A stretch of DNA of 64,000 bases, from contig NZ_JUHB01000001.1 in NCBI RefSeq assembly GCF_000799565.1, positions 1,240,001-1,304,000 of the forward strand, in the 5' to 3' direction. Position 1 is the stretch's first letter, and the number at the start of each line of letters is the position of its first letter. The notes beneath the pieces are model-generated. The model made no database searches. It was given only the letters and a program-made list of their open reading frames with translations, and was not told the DNA's origin. This DNA is from Cellulophaga sp. Hel_I_12. Its GTDB lineage: Bacteria > Bacteroidota > Bacteroidia > Flavobacteriales > Flavobacteriaceae. A program made the position numbers and the translations under genes. Below are positions 2-5,660 of this stretch, in pieces.

Positions 2-1921
2 AAAGAATATGATTTAGCTATCAATTTTACGGGAAATATTATCTCTATTTACAAGTTTATCCCGGAACCTATAGAACAGCCAGAAAAAGAAATTTTAGTT
101 CAGTTTGATCTTTTAAATAATCAGATTTCTCTTGATTTAAAAAATGACCCTTTAGAAAAAGTATTTCGCAAAATTATTGACATTTCAGGTCAGAATTTAC
201 TTTTTACTAGGCGCATGGAAAATTTACCATTAACTTTTTATGCAAAGAACGTTCCCTTCGAAAGTGCTCTTGAGAAATTAGCGGAACTAAATAATTTGAC
301 TTTCTCAAAATCAAGAGATGGTTTCTATTTATTTGATACATTTTATGATTCCGAAGATACAAATCAAGGAATCATTGTTAGAAATAATTCTTTTAGAGAT
401 AATCTAAACTATCAAGTTTTAGATACTATAAATAAGCTTTTAACTGTAGATTTTAATGGTACGTCAATAGAAAAAATAATCCAAGAGATAGGATATGATT
501 TGGGCTTAGACATCTATACCGCAACTCCTTTATCCCAGGCTGGGTTGGTTACGTTTAAAGCGAAAGAAATAAACTTCGATTCACTTTTAGAAAAAATTTT
601 CGAAAGTCAAAGGAGCGCGACTTTGGATAGTAGCCCAAACAAAATTGATAATAATAACCCTTCCCAAGGTCGTTCACAAAATGGAATTCAAAATATAACA
701 GAGATAAATAGCTTTACCTATAAAAAAGAAAATGATATTTATTTTTTTGGAACCACAAATCAACTAAGCGTACGAAATATAGAGGTGATACCAATGATGC
801 ATAGATCTATTGAACTGCTTGGGGATCCAACTTCATATACAGGTAGTAATAGAACCGCAGGAAGAACTAACTCCGGCAGCGTTAATTTTGTGGGTGGTAA
901 TAATTTGCAGGGAGGATTTCAAAACAATCAAAACTTCAATAATCAAGGGTTCAATACCAATGTTGGAGGAAATTCTAATTCGCGAAGAATCAATACGGAA
1001 TCTAACTCTTTTGGATCATATGATAATGAAGTAGAAGCCTTAGTGAAGATATTACCTGATGACCTTATTTCTGAATTGGATATAAAAGTTGATTATGAAC
1101 TTAATAGTTTCTTGGTTAGCGGTCCAGCTGCAAATATAAATAGGTTCAAAAATTTCATAAAACAAATAGATAAACCTGTTCCTGTAATTCTTATTGAAGT
1201 TATGATCTTAGAAGTAAATAAATCCTCAACGGTAGAAACAGGAATTAGTTGGGGAATTGGAGACGAACCAACAAAAACTCAAGGTTCAGTTTTCCCTACG
1301 ACAGATATTACTTTTGGTGCTGAAACGATTAATAAGGTAATTGGTGGTTTTGATGGGTTTGGTTCCTTTAACGTTGGTAAGCTTATACCCGACTTTTTTG
1401 CAACAATTAAAGCAATGGAACAAAATGGAAATATAAAGATTCGTTCAACACCTAAACTTTCTACTTTAAATGGTCATAGAGCCAGATTATCTATTGGTGA
1501 AACCACCTATTATGTAGTGACAAATCAAAATTTCTTTGGTTCTCAAATCCCAACCTCTACCGAAATACGAAATTATCAACCAATAGATGCGGAATTAGCC
1601 ATTAGCATAAAGCCTTTAGTGTCGGGAAATGGACAAGTTACTCTAGATATAAATGTTTTGCAATCAGATTTTAGTGGAGAAAGAATTGAAAACGATGCAC
1701 CTCCTGGATTAACTTCGAGAGAGTTTAGTTCTATAATTCGTGTGCAGAATCAAGACATGGTTATTCTTGGTGGCTTAGAAGAAAAAATTAAAAATGATAG
1801 TGGCAATGGTGTTCCTTTTTTAGCTAGAGTTCCTTTAATAAAATGGCTGTTCAGTAGCAGAAAAAGAGAGGATTCCAAAAAAAAATTAACTATTTTAATT
1901 AAACCCACAGTTATCTACTAA
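2..1921 (+). CDS. Secretin (type II secretion / type IV pilus outer-membrane channel), 5' end outside window
   Basis: The frame is open from base 2, well before the first ATG at 215, and the residues upstream of that ATG fit the same domain, so the true start lies left of the window; 639 residues are visible. Two STN/N-domain-like modules (roughly residues 45-115 and 140-200) are followed by a Gly/Asn-rich linker, an N3-like module and a C-terminal secretin core. The core ends with the typical ILGGLEE, GVPFLARVPLIKWLF and LTILIKPTVIY blocks. Secretins form the outer-membrane gate of type II secretion and type IV pilus machines. The stop codon overlaps the ATG of the next gene (TAATG), so translation is probably coupled. 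Family call is firm; T2SS versus pilus cannot be decided here. Confidence 0.9.
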   Translation, partial: KEYDLAINFTGNIISIYKFIPEPIEQPEKEILVQFDLLNNQISLDLKNDPLEKVFRKIIDISGQNLLFTRRMENLPLTFYAKNVPFESALEKLAELNNLTFSKSRDGFYLFDTFYDSEDTNQGIIVRNNSFRDNLNYQVLDTINKLLTVDFNGTSIEKIIQEIGYDLGLDIYTATPLSQAGLVTFKAKEINFDSLLEKIFESQRSATLDSSPNKIDNNNPSQGRSQNGIQNITEINSFTYKKENDIYFFGTTNQLSVRNIEVIPMMHRSIELLGDPTSYTGSNRTAGRTNSGSVNFVGGNNLQGGFQNNQNFNNQGFNTNVGGNSNSRRINTESNSFGSYDNEVEALVKILPDDLISELDIKVDYELNSFLVSGPAANINRFKNFIKQIDKPVPVILIEVMILEVNKSSTVETGISWGIGDEPTKTQGSVFPTTDITFGAETINKVIGGFDGFGSFNVGKLIPDFFATIKAMEQNGNIKIRSTPKLSTLNGHRARLSIGETTYYVVTNQNFFGSQIPTSTEIRNYQPIDAELAISIKPLVSGNGQVTLDINVLQSDFSGERIENDAPPGLTSREFSSIIRVQNQDMVILGGLEEKIKNDSGNGVPFLARVPLIKWLFSSRKREDSKKKLTILIKPTVIY

Positions 1922-3138
1922 TGCTTCAATCTCTACTTAATTTTATAAATGAAGGAAATCTTTATTATGGTTTAGAAATAGTTGAACACAATACGAAGAT
2001 AACTTTTCACTTATCCGAAATAAAACGAAAAAGAGGAGAATTATTAATACGTAAAACATTCTCAGATTCCAATTTAATCAAACTAGTCGAAATAATAAAA
2101 AAAAACTCTCCCGTAATTTTAACTCTTAACACGTCTGATATTGTTACTAAAATCACTCCCTCTGGTCGATTGCAAAATACTGAAGTTATCGTTCATGATC
2201 AATTTCCAAATTTAGATTTTAGCTCTTTTTATTACTCATTATTTCAAAATAATGGATCAACTCTAGTATCCATAGTAAAAAAAGACAAAATATCAGCCTA
2301 TCTTGATGAACTTTCTAGTCTAAAAATTAATCTTTTTAAGATAGTTTTAGGAGTTTCTGAAATTCAAGTGATTGTACCCTATTTAAATACTGAAACACTA
2401 CATATTTCTAATTGTGAATTATTTTTAGAGAACCAAGTTTTAAAAAAAATTACTTCATTTGGTTCTGAAAGAATTTTAGAACAATCTAAATATGAGATAA
2501 ACAATCTGACCATAGGATCAAATTTCATTTTGGGATTTTCAAGTGTATTAAATTATATATCAAAGGATTATAAGGCTGAATCCAATTTTGATGATAAGCA
2601 GTCATTTTTGATGACAGAGTTTAAATCCAATCGAATGTTTGATTTGTTATTAAAAACTTCTTTAGTCTGCATACTTGTGGTTTTATTATTCAATTTCTTC
2701 GTGTTCAGTCATTATTTTGAAGAAAATAATGCTTTAAAAACAATGGCATCATTTAATACCGATAATAAAAAAGTACTAATTGAATTAAAAGAAAAAGTAG
2801 CAAATGGGGAAGAAAGAGTTGAAACAATGCTATCTACTTCAAATTCAAAATCATCATTCTTTTTAGATCAAATAGCATTGACAATTCCCAATTCAATGAG
2901 TTTATCTGAAATAAAATATCAACCCCTCTCAAAACCAGTAAGGGATTCTAAAGCAATTGAAATTAACAAGAATATTATTATCATATCAGGAAACTCAAAA
3001 AACTCTAAGGACTTTTCTAAATGGATTCAATTAATTGAATCATTAGAATGGATAAAACAAGCTCAAATTTTAGAGTATGACTACGAGAATAATTATAGTT
3101 CTATTTTTTCAATTAAAATAGACATGGATGAAAACTAA
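1921..3138 (+). CDS. GspL/PilM-PilN-like inner-membrane assembly protein
   Basis: 405 residues. The cytoplasmic part (about 1-240) begins with YYGLEIVEHNTKITF, which resembles a degenerate actin-like (PilM/GspL) first strand. A single hydrophobic segment follows at about 242-266, then a charged coiled-coil-like stretch and a small C-terminal alpha/beta domain, as in PilN or the periplasmic part of GspL. This corresponds to PilM and PilN in one chain, the GspL layout. Position supports the call: the start codon overlaps the secretin stop and the 3' end overlaps the next gene by 11 bp, a tight operon. The gene is strongly AT-rich. Such proteins link the cytoplasmic ATPase to the envelope part of the machine. 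Assignment rests on architecture and context, not on strong motifs. Confidence 0.7.
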   Translation: MLQSLLNFINEGNLYYGLEIVEHNTKITFHLSEIKRKRGELLIRKTFSDSNLIKLVEIIKKNSPVILTLNTSDIVTKITPSGRLQNTEVIVHDQFPNLDFSSFYYSLFQNNGSTLVSIVKKDKISAYLDELSSLKINLFKIVLGVSEIQVIVPYLNTETLHISNCELFLENQVLKKITSFGSERILEQSKYEINNLTIGSNFILGFSSVLNYISKDYKAESNFDDKQSFLMTEFKSNRMFDLLLKTSLVCILVVLLFNFFVFSHYFEENNALKTMASFNTDNKKVLIELKEKVANGEERVETMLSTSNSKSSFFLDQIALTIPNSMSLSEIKYQPLSKPVRDSKAIEINKNIIIISGNSKNSKDFSKWIQLIESLEWIKQAQILEYDYENNYSSIFSIKIDMDEN

Positions 3139-3640
3139 TAATAAATTAACCTTATTAATCTTAAGTATATTAATAGCTTTATTTGTCTGTTACAATTTTG
3201 CAATTAAAAATACAATACAACTCCATAAAGAGCATAATAAATTATTAAAAGAAGTTGTATTTTTTAATAATATCTCTGATGAACTTGCTTTACTAAATAG
3301 AAGAAAAAGATACAATGATTCAATTTTATTGGAAATGAATCTTGAAAATACCTCAATAGAGAATAATCTATTAAGAATCTTAAATATAGAAGCTAGCAAA
3401 AATAGTCTTGATATTATTGATTTTAATACTCCACATATTTACATAGATAACAATGGAGAGGTTTATACCTACAACTTTACGCTTCAAGGCGGTTTTATAG
3501 ATATAATTTCTACATTACATCAATTGGAATTAAATGGAAATTTTGGAGAAGTAGCTCATGTTAATTTATTAAAAAAGAAAAATTTCAAAACAAATAAAGA
3601 CTATTTAATTGCTACAGTTTTTATTCAGAATTTTAAATAG
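3128..3640 (+). CDS. GspM/PilO-like inner-membrane protein
   Basis: 170 residues. A short cytoplasmic start (MKTNNK) is followed by one transmembrane helix (about 7-26), a coiled-coil-like region (about 30-75) and a C-terminal alpha/beta domain (about 85-170), the classic PilO/GspM layout. The ATG lies inside the last codons of the upstream GspL-like gene (11-bp overlap). In known systems this protein pairs with the GspL/PilN partner to form the inner-membrane platform. No catalytic residues are expected. Sequence identity within this family is always low, so the call depends on gene order and topology. The gene is markedly AT-rich, and the operon seems to end after it. Confidence 0.65.
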   Translation: MKTNNKLTLLILSILIALFVCYNFAIKNTIQLHKEHNKLLKEVVFFNNISDELALLNRRKRYNDSILLEMNLENTSIENNLLRILNIEASKNSLDIIDFNTPHIYIDNNGEVYTYNFTLQGGFIDIISTLHQLELNGNFGEVAHVNLLKKKNFKTNKDYLIATVFIQNFK

Positions 3641-3708
3641 AAATTATGTAAGTTCAAATTATTAAAAGAAATTTAAATTCTTGACTTAAAAAGAAATAGC
3701 ATAAACTA

Positions 3709-3749
3709 GGAGTGGAAAATTTGGATAAGCTTTATTCCACTACCTTTTT
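3709..3749 (+). terminator. Probable intrinsic terminator of the secretin operon
   Basis: AGTGGAA (3711-3717) can pair with TTCCACT (3735-3741), extended by GG/CC across two unpaired bases. A run of five T follows at 3745-3749. It lies 70 bp after the GspM-like stop codon. The loop is long (17 nt), so strength is uncertain. Confidence 0.5.
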
Positions 3750-3906
3750 GATAAACAAACCAAAGGATTTTAAATTGTAGTTCTTAGGTATTATTGTATA
3801 GTAATTTAATGAAGATACTACGTTACTCATTTATAAAAGCTAAAAAACAAAACAAACAACATTTTTGGACTGGATTTTAGACAAGAAAAATAATTTAGTA
3901 CAAATA

Positions 3907-5157
3907 CTAATAACTTACACTAGTTTCTATGCTTTCCTTACCATTTAACTTTATGCGTAAAGCTTGCATATCTAATGAAACTTTTTGCTCAATCACTTTT
4001 GCGTAAATCTGGGTTGTTGAAAGTTTTGTATGTCCTAACATTTTTGAAACGGTTTCTATAGGCACACCGTTTGAAAGGGTAACAGTAGTTGCGAAAGTAT
4101 GTCGCGCCGCATGAAAGGTCAATTTTTTGTTTATTTTCAGAATTAAGGCTATTTCCTTCAAGTATTTATTTATTTTTTGATTTGAAAATACCGGTAGTAA
4201 TTTTTCTTTCTGGCCTTCAAGGCCTTGGTCATATTTTTTCAAGATTTCAAGAGCCTTATCTAAAATCGGAATTTTTACAGTTTCATCATTCTTTTCCCTT
4301 TTCGTGAAAATCCAATAATTACCGTCAATGCCTCGTGCAATGTGATTGTTGTCAAGCAGTTTTACATCTATGTAGGATAAGCCTGTATAACAAGAAAAAA
4401 GGAAAACATCCCTCGTATTTTGATGAATATCTTTTGAAAGCTTCCCAGATTCCAGAATTTCAAGTTCCGATTGGGATAAAAGAACTCGCTGATGTTTTGC
4501 GAACTTCAGCGAGAATCTTACGAAAGGGTCTTTATGTATCCATTCCAATCGAAGTGCCAAATTCATCATTTTTTTTAGTCGTTCCAAGTGCTTCATAACA
4601 CCATTATTTCTCAAGGGTTGAGAACTATTAATAGATTTTCCGTTGCGTAAAAACTGTTCAAAATCAATGATGAATTTATAAGATAGTTGTTTTAAATAAA
4701 CATCATTAGTCTTTAGTTTATTCTTTAAATATCGTTTTATATATCGTTCCGTAGTGAAATAGTTCTTTAGGGTTCCTGGCTTTAAAACTGAAACCATATT
4801 TATATTATGATAAGACACCAACTGAAGTAATGTTTTGTGCTGTTCATCTTCTCCAAGGTATCTAGCTTTAATGGATTGCGCCGTAATGTAAATAGAATCA
4901 CCTAAAAGTTGTTTGTGACAAGTTAATAAATCAGAATAGACTTGGTCTAAATATAAATTCAACGCCTTACCCTCCGATGTTCGTAAAGTTGTCCTTTTTG
5001 AGCGATTATCCCAATAGGTAACCGATGTGAATCGTTTTAAACTGATTTCAGCACGTTTTCCTTCAACGGTTACACGTGCATAAATAGGTGCAAAATCATC
5101 TTTTGCTTTGGCAATACTAGGCCAAAAATGAATTGAAAAAGTCTTCGAAGTCTGCAT
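3907..5157 (-). CDS. Tyrosine site-specific recombinase (CTnDOT-like integrase)
   Basis: 416 residues with an N-terminal arm-binding region (about 1-100), a SAM-like core-binding domain (about 115-215) and a C-terminal catalytic domain. The HxxR box is HAARH (H349, R352); the later His is in MLGH (H376) and the nucleophile is Y385 in TQIYAKV. At the place of the first conserved Arg the sequence reads TGLSYIDV, with Ser instead of Arg. This is the known peculiarity of IntDOT of Bacteroides CTnDOT, so the enzyme need not be dead. It is full length and unbroken. Its start codon faces tRNA-Pro 226 bp away across a repeat-rich stretch, the usual arrangement at one end of an integrated element. No excisionase or mobilisation gene is visible beside it. 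Confidence 0.9.
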   Translation of the reverse strand: MQTSKTFSIHFWPSIAKAKDDFAPIYARVTVEGKRAEISLKRFTSVTYWDNRSKRTTLRTSEGKALNLYLDQVYSDLLTCHKQLLGDSIYITAQSIKARYLGEDEQHKTLLQLVSYHNINMVSVLKPGTLKNYFTTERYIKRYLKNKLKTNDVYLKQLSYKFIIDFEQFLRNGKSINSSQPLRNNGVMKHLERLKKMMNLALRLEWIHKDPFVRFSLKFAKHQRVLLSQSELEILESGKLSKDIHQNTRDVFLFSCYTGLSYIDVKLLDNNHIARGIDGNYWIFTKREKNDETVKIPILDKALEILKKYDQGLEGQKEKLLPVFSNQKINKYLKEIALILKINKKLTFHAARHTFATTVTLSNGVPIETVSKMLGHTKLSTTQIYAKVIEQKVSLDMQALRIKLNGKESIETSVSY

Positions 5158-5250
5158 AAACTCTTGCTTTAAGTTAATATGATTTGTTTTTCGAAAGTCA
5201 AATCGATACGAAAGCCAAGTTTATTGAAATATAAATGTAGTGAAAATTCT

Positions 5251-5280
5251 GGTAACAAATTAGGTAACCGAATAGGTAAC
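5251..5280. repeat. Three GGTAAC iterons with exact 12-bp period
   Basis: GGTAAC occurs at 5251-5256, 5263-5268 and 5275-5280, each start 12 bp from the last. The array sits between the integrase start codon and the tRNA gene. Short phased direct repeats in this position are typical of arm-type recombinase or accessory-protein sites. The repeats are seen directly; their function is inferred. Confidence 0.55.
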
Positions 5281-5297
5281 CTTTGATATGATATTAA

Positions 5298-5353
5298 AGC
5301 TAATTATATGAAATCAAAAAAAATTAAAACCCTTGATTTTCATACAATTAGCT
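5298..5353. repeat. Long imperfect inverted repeat between integrase and tRNA-Pro
   Basis: The arm 5298-5317 (beginning AGCTAATT) is the reverse complement of 5333-5353 (ending AATTAGCT) apart from one mismatch and one extra base. The spacer is 15 bp and A-rich. No T-run follows it in the orientation of either neighbouring gene, so it is not an obvious terminator. Its location suggests part of an attachment-site complex. Confidence 0.55.
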
Positions 5354-5360
5354 ATTTTTT

Positions 5361-5376
5361 GGTATCTATTGATACC
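5361..5376. repeat. Perfect inverted repeat GGTATC-TATT-GATACC next to tRNA-Pro
   Basis: A 6-4-6 perfect inverted repeat whose edge lies 7 bases from the tRNA discriminator base. Core-type sites of tyrosine recombinases are short inverted repeats at the crossover, so this is a candidate. Crossover within the tRNA 3' end itself is equally possible. Confidence 0.45.
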
Positions 5377-5383
5377 TTAATTG

Positions 5384-5457
5384 TCGGGATGACAGGATTT
5401 GAACCTGCGACCCCTCGACCCCCAGCCGAGTGCGCTACCGGACTGCGCTACATCCCG
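5384..5457 (-). tRNA. tRNA-Pro (anticodon GGG)
   Basis: Read on the minus strand, the gene starts CGGGATG at 5457 and ends CATCCCG plus discriminator A at 5384. The seven acceptor pairs are perfect. The D-arm region holds GTAGCGCAG and GGTAGCGC. The anticodon arm is CTCGG-CTGGGGG-TCGAG, giving anticodon GGG (reads CCC). The T-arm contains GGTTCAAATCC. CCA is not encoded (CAA follows). The 3' end points at the integrase, so it is a plausible integration site. The first 11 bases of the gene are repeated 107 bp away in the tandem duplication. Confidence 0.96.
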
Positions 5458-5660
5458 AAATGTATTTAGCAACACCAAGTTGCCTATTTTTAATAGTTTC
5501 TCAAAAGTACTTAGGCTTACTGTAGTGCAGTTTATCCTGAGCGCCGTCGAAGGGCTACATCCCGAAATGTATTTAGCAACACTAAGTTGCCTATTTTTAA
5601 TAGTTTCTCAAAAGTACCTAGGCTTACTGTAGTGCAGTTTATCCTGAGCGCCGTCGAAGG
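5447..5660. repeat. 107-bp tandem duplication starting inside tRNA-Pro
   Basis: Copy 1 is 5447-5553 and copy 2 is 5554-5660, followed by four more matching bases. Only two differences are visible (CACCAAG/CACTAAG and GTACTTAGG/GTACCTAGG). The unit begins with the last 11 plus-strand bases of tRNA-Pro (its 5' end), so copy 2 carries a useless fragment of the tRNA. Each unit ends with TTTATCCTGAGCGCCGTCG, which resembles a small dispersed palindrome-like element found in many bacterial genomes. The rest of the gene-free stretch, 5661-5844, shows nothing recognisable. Confidence 0.93.

Follow-up and report, generated by a model that had tools for sequence, protein, structure and literature searches.

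Three genes for a machine resembling a type II secretion system (T2SS) occupy the left edge of the window, the 64,000-nucleotide stretch of the Cellulophaga sp. Hel_I_12 genome analysed here, and only an integrase lies between them and a tRNA-Pro gene. The locus raises the question of whether a secretion machine has been carried to this site by an inserting element, as the initial annotation proposed, and what such a machine might export. Genomic islands that target tRNA genes have a tyrosine integrase at the tRNA 3' end and an att repeat, accrete in tandem and hold alternative cargo. The first gene encodes a GspD/PilQ-type secretin (2..1921, + strand; Pfam Secretin E 6e-38), truncated at its 5' end by the window edge and 739 aa long when complete (genome 1239702-1241921). 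It is followed by a GspL-like protein of 405 aa (1921..3138, +), recognised by its predicted fold, with Pfam PilN just under cut-off, and by a GspM-like protein of 170 aa (3128..3640, +), assigned from its position and its conservation beside GspL. These three genes stand where they had been placed, as does the full-length tyrosine recombinase (416 aa; 3907..5157, -; Arm-DNA-bind_5, Phage_int_SAM_5, Phage_integrase) at the 3' end of tRNA-Pro(GGG) (5383..5457, -), the integration target. We consider it probable that the three genes form the right end of a site-specific 37.9-kb island that spreads an RHS-export machine.

The window starts inside this integrative element (genome 1207467-1245382), which is limited by a 13-bp direct repeat copying the tRNA-Pro(GGG) 3' end. 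attR is the tRNA end itself (5383..5395, +) and attL is an exact 13-bp copy at genome 1207467, 32.5 kb left of the window, in direct orientation and at a spacing of 37,916 bp. The leftward course of the element and the presence of such a repeat, both anticipated in the initial annotation, are supported by this copy 37.9 kb from the tRNA, and gspE/F/G-type genes are present inside the repeats. A scan of 46 kb for an att copy nearer than this on the GspF side gave two words with three mismatches each, neither adjoining GspF. It is extremely improbable that the repeat is a coincidence and the island an accident of gene order. Short words do recur by chance, as 22 of 4000 random 13-mers (GC at least 50%) have an exact copy within 60 kb leftward, and 102 of 4000 have one within 45 kb in the relative G063, but the repeat lies at the exact tRNA 3' end in four genomes, the signature left of attL matches the end of another element, and homology between two relatives, G062 and G108, ends at the repeat, which refutes chance in practice.

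The same layout is found in three relatives (Allomuricauda/Flagellimonas/Muricauda), in which GspF through the integrase is enclosed by tRNA-Pro repeats of 17 bp (G062), 15 bp (G064) and 13 bp (G063), spaced 42.8, 29.9 and 36.0 kb apart, respectively. The comparison bears on a second explanation, that the T2SS-like cluster is an old chromosomal resident and the integrase and tRNA repeat belong to a different element that landed alongside. One point in its favour is that attL and GspF are 9.4 kb apart in the window's element, with other genes, including IS110 pieces, in between. The three relatives differ in this respect, their far repeat lying only 210-1340 bp beyond GspF, so that repeat and integrase closely enclose the machine. 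Comparison of sites between sister genomes, which had been suggested for the locus, revealed an alternatively occupied site for the G062 element: the left flank of G108 is homologous to that of G062 up to and through the same 13-bp repeat and then continues into other cargo, after which come tRNA-Pro and the same right flank as in G062. Residence beside an unrelated element is largely refuted for G062 by these flanks, and the secretin is missing from 16 of 17 congeneric genomes. Its distribution is patchy: one of the 17 has it (G007), as do 37 of 198 further genomes that represent the family at one per genus.

Other loci favour old residence. Flanks of up to 10 kb were surveyed for the best 80 of 473 loci; tRNA-Pro lies within 6 kb in six of these 80, and in only seven was a close integrase detected in the 8 kb following GspM, with a model built from those same integrases, an eighth (L159) being distant. 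The cluster is away from tRNA-Pro in most of these loci and in G007; in G007, the sole congener with the machine, and in G034-G036 neither tRNA-Pro nor a close integrase was seen beside the machine in the annotated stretch. The integrases are also not specific to the machine, all three tRNA-Pro genes examined in the source genome having such integrases. Taken with the enclosing repeats and the occupied site, we regard the old-resident explanation as improbable. The initial annotation had counted a cluster at the same place without an integrase in sister strains as evidence against a mobile element, and two loci from other genera, L090 and L124 (the latter in G065), come close to this, with the machine beside tRNA-Pro and no integrase; we read them as cases of integrase loss. 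G060 likewise has the machine at tRNA-Pro; it lacks an integrase, and 40 kb of sequence contain no second repeat copy. Jejuia was uninformative: its T2SS contig breaks off within RHS, and the second repeat copy is on another contig that shows no T2SS gene in 20 kb.

None of the congeners inspected offered an empty counterpart that matches the window's own site exactly, and the left-flank gene is missing from all 17. The surroundings of the right-flank gene were inspected in nine of them: tRNA-Pro adjoins it in G001, G005, G010 and G014, where the left side is unrelated, there is no tRNA-Pro there in G004, G007, G011 and G017, and in G013 it is at a contig edge. Distant secretins also occur in five plasmid records, two of which were inspected; these records could be fragments of assemblies and were not counted towards transfer.

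The window's integrase shares 56-67% identity with seven integrases encoded near this operon in relatives, and at most 36% with phage-record integrases (ten listed of eleven). The machine-adjacent integrases do not form one clade, as the tree has three changes and 42 of 500 shuffles gave a value as low. Two AGGTAAC repeats at the right end (5262..5280, +), a motif picked after the ends were seen, are putative arm-type sites; they lie 121 and 109 bp inside the right end, and two counterparts are found 74 and 86 bp in from the left end. The ends of G062, G063 and G064 have another motif in common, at 77 and 116 bp. In a weak control, in none of four elements did the 9-mers common to both ends outnumber the highest value obtained from 200 random stretches. 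To the left of attL, a 281-bp stretch that includes the 13-bp repeat shares 79% identity with the integrase-side end of the G061 element, the part of that element covered by the comparison, as the G061 contig begins inside RHS. The same stretch contains a 21-codon integrase remnant, and these two features mark the DNA adjoining attL as the degraded end of a related element that came earlier, pointing to tandem insertion.

With a GC content of 0.329, the window's element ranks second lowest among 267 overlapping 38-kb windows (304 kb). The AT-richness remarked on in the initial annotation therefore holds here; as a mark of mobility it was rejected, the elements of three relatives having a GC content about that of their flanks or above. 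A search for mobilisation genes, as had been suggested, was negative: Pfam recognised no relaxase, mobilisation or conjugation family in 30 of the 33 element ORFs of at least 70 aa, the other three, of 71-85 aa, being outside the scan. Self-transfer is therefore not supported, and passage from one cell to another would depend on a helper, a phage or transformation. The gene nicknames FadL, SoxC, GDSL, HEX20, OmpH, metal efflux and MORN are readings of the sequence starts.

The machine is encoded in two blocks that flank giant RHS/YD-repeat genes, one with GspF, pseudopilin candidates and a GspC/PilP-like protein and the other ordered GspG-O-E-D-L-M. Its components mark it as a predicted T2SS-like envelope apparatus related to type IVa pili, and a secretin, PilB/GspE-like ATPase, GspF, pseudopilin and GspL/PilM-like platform are shared with the type IVa pilus/T2SS branch of the type IV filament superfamily, as far as the available part of its description goes (PMC6668835). 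The secretin, the ATPase and the platform protein GspF score above Pfam cut-offs, GspG and one minor pilin are sub-threshold or nearly so, and O, M, K, I and C are assigned from position and homology among relatives only. The NCBIfam T2SS equivalog cut-offs are missed by GspD (153.9 against 351.35 bits), GspE (486.1 against 630.25) and GspG (34.9 against 88.85), which sets the system apart from that branch. The model of the GspL-like protein (pLDDT 81.7) has the cytoplasmic domain of GspL (4pht/1yf5) as its top PDB matches, followed by PilM (5eoy); a PDB sequence search with this protein gave no significant match. The 170-aa GspM-like protein has no family match and no significant PDB match, and a BLAST relative of it occurs in all 80 of the best 80 of 473 loci.

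These scores leave room for a third explanation, in which the apparatus would serve as a pilus or in DNA uptake, and the RHS giants would be neighbours on the island that leave the cell otherwise, for example by the type IX secretion system (T9SS). The ATPase has a slightly better score against PilB than against GspE, the pilin is nearest to a PilA model, the secretin profile has PilQ as its top PDB match, and a published tree, in the part available, groups Bacteroidetes 'T2SS' with type IVa pili (PMC6668835). A separate protein encoded by the element carries a T9SS sorting domain, and in other families of the order there are genomes with DUF6443 but no secretin (G038, G039, G040 and G053). 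On the other side, the secretin has higher bit scores to GspD than to PilQ models, under both NCBIfam cut-offs, and a scan of four RHS/YD giants revealed no T9SS sorting domain. The source genome has one T2SSE ATPase over cut-off, a second match of 20.2 bits being below it; therefore no PilT, the retraction ATPase, is present over cut-off, another difference from the type IVa pilus branch. The machine and the giants are also inherited together. Among the 198 other family genomes 37 have the secretin, 30 have DUF6443-RHS giants and 28 have both, DUF6443 thus being present in 28 of 37 secretin-bearing genomes and 2 of 161 others (Fisher p 5e-24, uncorrected for kinship). YD/RHS genes lie inside the fetched flank (up to 10 kb) in 66 of the best 80 of 473 loci. 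We therefore judge a pilus or DNA-uptake apparatus unlikely, while giving it real weight.

Under the preferred reading, an island carrying an RHS-export machine, a phage-type tyrosine integrase would have inserted the element at the tRNA-Pro(GGG) 3' end, attR restoring the tRNA end, and might also permit excision. The machine would most likely push the RHS giants, or proteins encased by them, through its own secretin. The element would in this way spread a module for export or antagonism that is complete in itself, and the giants may be toxic. There are other mobile elements that carry a type VI secretion system. A broader proposal, given slightly less than even odds, is that a family of tRNA-Pro-targeting elements has been built round a dedicated RHS-giant export machine, with machine, substrate, probable immunity and integrase moving between flavobacteria as one unit of about 30-43 kb. 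Because machine and probable giant exports would form one block in inserting DNA adjacent to a tRNA, they could be gained or lost as a unit. The island gives a natural comparison of presence and absence, and suggests how an entire secretion machine could be acquired in one step, a route open to testing. Compared with other tRNA-targeted islands, it shares the place of the integrase, the att repeat at the tRNA end, tandem accretion and alternative cargo, and differs in carrying an envelope export machine together with the giants that are its probable substrates, and in having no recognised relaxase.

A cluster of about 35 kb specific to CC-ST10 of F. psychrophilum, encoding a T2S system and ABC-toxin-like proteins, has already been described (PMC5808330). 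In the available part of that description it resembles the present element in its two oppositely transcribed T2S blocks, its clone specificity and its exported proteins with ABC-toxin domains, for which an RHS-repeat reference is cited; the same part gives no integrase, att repeat, named target tRNA, empty site or link to another genus. The putative T2SS of Cytophaga hutchinsonii (chu_3191-3202) likewise has divergent Bacteroidota D, E, F, G and O proteins with PilN/M/O/P-like candidates for L, M and C, and its mutants are defective in cellulose use (PMC5553014); it differs in that the words RHS, horizontal and mobile do not occur in that paper. In the part of the literature available, what Bacteroidota T2SS-like systems export has not been settled, and the statistical and physical linkage to DUF6443-RHS giants, in an element with defined ends, provides a named substrate candidate. 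Rhs_assc_core is present in the window's element. Between pairs of RHS proteins the core region was related in 6 of 6 and the tip in 0 of 6; an overly strict motif caught the core in 4 of 13 proteins.

The left edge of the window holds, as the initial annotation stated, genes for a secretin, for proteins resembling GspL and GspM, for a full-length tyrosine integrase and for tRNA-Pro(GGG). The predicted model of the GspL-like protein (mean pLDDT 81.7) matched the cytoplasmic domain of GspL best in the PDB, with PilM next; the GspM-like protein has no family match and owes its provisional name to its position and conservation next to GspL. The window covers positions 1240001-1304000 of a single-contig genome (4.03 Mb), and the 240 kb to its left were included. 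The direct repeat of the tRNA 3' end predicted there was recovered as an exact 13-bp copy in direct orientation at genome position 1207467, 37,916 bp from the tRNA copy. As a control, 4000 random 13-mers (GC at least 50%) were matched against the 60 kb to their left, and 22 recurred there exactly. We consider it likely that this 37.9-kb element is a site-specific integrative island at tRNA-Pro, carrying a T2SS-like machine and the giant RHS proteins it probably exports.

Rightwards from the left repeat (attL), 9.4 kb of other genes precede GspF, beginning with an HTH regulator and continuing with hypothetical genes, IS110 transposase pieces, a cNMP-binding regulator and, last, a NUDIX gene. 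GspF starts the first machine block, on the minus strand, followed there by a pair of short pilin-like proteins (the first or second marked by a sub-threshold N-methylation match, its partner by homology only), a GspK candidate (424 aa) and a protein resembling GspC/PilP. Still on the minus strand come a protein whose fibronectin-type matches stay sub-threshold, a lipoprotein-like protein, a PKD protein that bears a T9SS type B sorting domain, a DUF6443/RHS-core protein (1811 aa), a lipocalin-like protein and a YD/RHS protein (1121 aa). The second block, on the plus strand, begins with a response regulator and contains GspG, GspO, GspE, GspD, GspL and GspM in that order. Beyond this block lies the integrase. 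The gspE, gspF and gspG-type genes sought beyond the window lie within the element; the letters K, I, J, C, O and M are tentative, assigned from gene position and size and from homology to the relatives' genes. Mobilisation genes, also looked for, did not appear, as a Pfam scan gave no relaxase or conjugation family in 30 of the 33 element ORFs of at least 70 aa. The AT-richness noted for the left-edge genes extends to the whole element (GC 0.329, ranking second from the bottom among 267 overlapping 38-kb windows across 304 kb). It is not general, since in three Allomuricauda/Flagellimonas/Muricauda relatives (G062, G063 and G064) the element shows no clear AT excess over its own flanks.

Site-specific recombination between the core at the tRNA end and the element's attP would insert the element and restore the tRNA, and subsequent elements would stack next to the resident one. 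The motif AGGTAAC is present in two copies near each end of the element, at 74 and 86 bp from the left one and at 121 and 109 bp from the right one; a fifth copy lies elsewhere in the element. In G062 and G064, ACCGAACTC is found exactly twice in the element, 77 bp from its left end and 116 bp from its right end; G063 has the shorter ACCGAA at the same offsets (77 and 116 bp), yet 9 copies in total. These motifs, chosen post hoc from the ends, may be integrase arm-type sites; in a blind count, none of the four elements shared more 9-mers between its ends than the highest value among 200 random stretches. A 281-bp stretch adjoining 1207467 on the left, counting the repeat, shows 79% identity to the integrase-side end of another relative's element (G061) and holds a 21-codon integrase remnant, which indicates that the element was inserted in tandem beside an older, decayed one.

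Searching the GTDB genome collection with the secretin yielded 473 relatives, of which the best 80 were fetched as loci; we take these to be Flavobacteriaceae, by name or genus, apart from L105 (Bacteroidetes bacterium) and L115 (Cytophaga sp. FL35). In these best 80, the genes G-O-E-D-L-M form one run, with E, D, L and M in all, G in 78 and O in 77. Six loci (L131, L141, L145, L146, L150 and L153) have 1-3 additional ORFs between GspE and GspD, an insertion point inside the operon. Within 8 kb past GspM, seven loci (L091, L093, L094, L101, L115, L123 and L139) have a close integrase and L159 has a distant one; six (L090, L093, L094, L123, L124 and L139) have a tRNA-Pro within 6 kb. In 71 of the 80, the sequence extends 6 kb or more past GspM. 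Longer flanks were fetched for six of the genomes bearing tRNA-Pro or integrase. The tRNA 3'-end repeat recurs 42.8 kb (G062), 29.9 kb (G064) and 36.0 kb (G063, where the target is tRNA-Pro(TGG)) away, 210-1340 bp past GspF, so that the repeats enclose machine, giants and integrase. G061 shows a tandem arrangement: its second repeat is 13.7 kb before tRNA-Pro, and a distinct block of other genes fills the interval. G060 lacks an integrase as well as any second repeat within 40 kb, and the G066 locus is interrupted by contig ends.

Several observations speak against an island. Most of the 80 loci have no integrase of this type visibly alongside, and no tRNA-Pro or close integrase was found beside the machine in the annotated sequence, in part limited by contig ends, of the only congener with the machine (G007) or of G034-G036. 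The machine-adjacent integrases are not one clade (3 changes in a 14-sequence tree, with 42 of 500 shuffles as low). Two relatives (L090 and L124) have the machine at tRNA-Pro without an integrase, which comes close to a refuting condition of the initial proposal and may reflect integrase loss.

Comparison of occupied sites favours the island. The left-flank gene of G062 has orthologues 71-82% identical in G063, G089, G108, G088, G092 and G102, and 33-40 kb towards the tRNA side were fetched for the last five. The homology of G108 to G062 (76% identity over 367 columns) reaches the 13-bp repeat and includes it, after which the two diverge; the G108 tRNA-Pro lies 30.4 kb beyond the repeat, beside the same giant right-flank gene (95% identity over 1750 aa). 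The slot between (L215-L216) contains other genes; one encodes a protein of 4135 aa, and another is a shortened integrase-like gene whose 361-aa product shares 63% identity over 326 aa with the G062 integrase. With flanks and repeat homologous and cargo different, the machine-bearing segment of G062 is an insert. The G102 slot holds 19.5 kb of other genes, its left side lacking the repeat; no tRNA-Pro was seen in the fetched stretches of G088, G089 and G092, and no Gsp-type gene was labelled in any of the five stretches. The empty-site comparison proposed initially yielded alternative occupancy for G062, but no empty allele of the window's own site. Among nine congeners opened, four (G001, G005, G010 and G014) have the window's right flank beside tRNA-Pro: G001 and G010 carry integrases 45-49% identical with other cargo at it, and G005 and G014 have no integrase there. 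Elsewhere in the window's own genome, two tRNA-Pro(TGG) and one tRNA-Lys each have a same-family integrase on the 3' side, 47-51% identical (L021:8028-9612, L022:12401-13891 and L023:11630-13180). A 107-bp tandem duplication (window 5447-5660, 105/107 identical) takes in the first 11 bases at the 5' end of tRNA-Pro and extends upstream.

The secretin was found in 1 of 17 congeners, 3 of 19 other family genomes and 2 of 23 genomes from other families of the order. DUF6443, which marks the RHS giants, occurred in exactly the four secretin-bearing genomes of those 36 family genomes; outside the family, G038, G039, G040 and G053 have it without the secretin. A wider draw of 198 other family genomes, one per genus and partly overlapping the first (cut-offs E 1e-30 for secretin, 1e-10 for DUF6443), gave secretin in 37, DUF6443 in 30, both in 28, secretin alone in 9 and DUF6443 alone in 2 (G219 and G234), a co-occurrence with Fisher p 5e-24, uncorrected for kinship. 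Close secretins show the link more strongly (24/27 with DUF6443) than divergent ones do (4/10). The two genes lie 6.0-26.5 kb apart in 14 genomes, including the window's own, hand-picked from among those with both on one contig, and 66 of the 80 loci have YD/RHS genes in the available flank; in L093, one of the other 14, they lie further left. From position and co-inheritance, the giants are probably the machine's exported cargo. RHS shells are known to encase toxic C-termini, and export, toxicity and cell-to-cell transfer may all apply here. With one assembly ATPase and no PilT scoring above the cut-off, the machine is more in keeping with a pseudopilus piston than with a retracting pilus.

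The accessible text of PMC5808330 describes a clone-specific cluster of about 35 kb in F. psychrophilum that, like the element, has T2S genes in two opposite blocks, together with ABC-toxin-like proteins, so a T2SS with such giants on a variable island is not new. Excerpts of PMC5553014 report a machine in C. hutchinsonii related to that of the element, and those of PMC6668835 group the so-called T2SS of Bacteroidetes with T4aP. No description of an integrative-element family with this machine was found in the portions available of the open-licence literature. Two Flavobacterium records labelled 'plasmid', which may be excised forms, true plasmids or assembly pieces, also contain a T2SS-like operon: a circular one of 26.9 kb with a tyrosine recombinase (L184, NZ_CP109997.1) and a linear one of 11.3 kb with an RHS-core gene (L183, NZ_CP091287.1).
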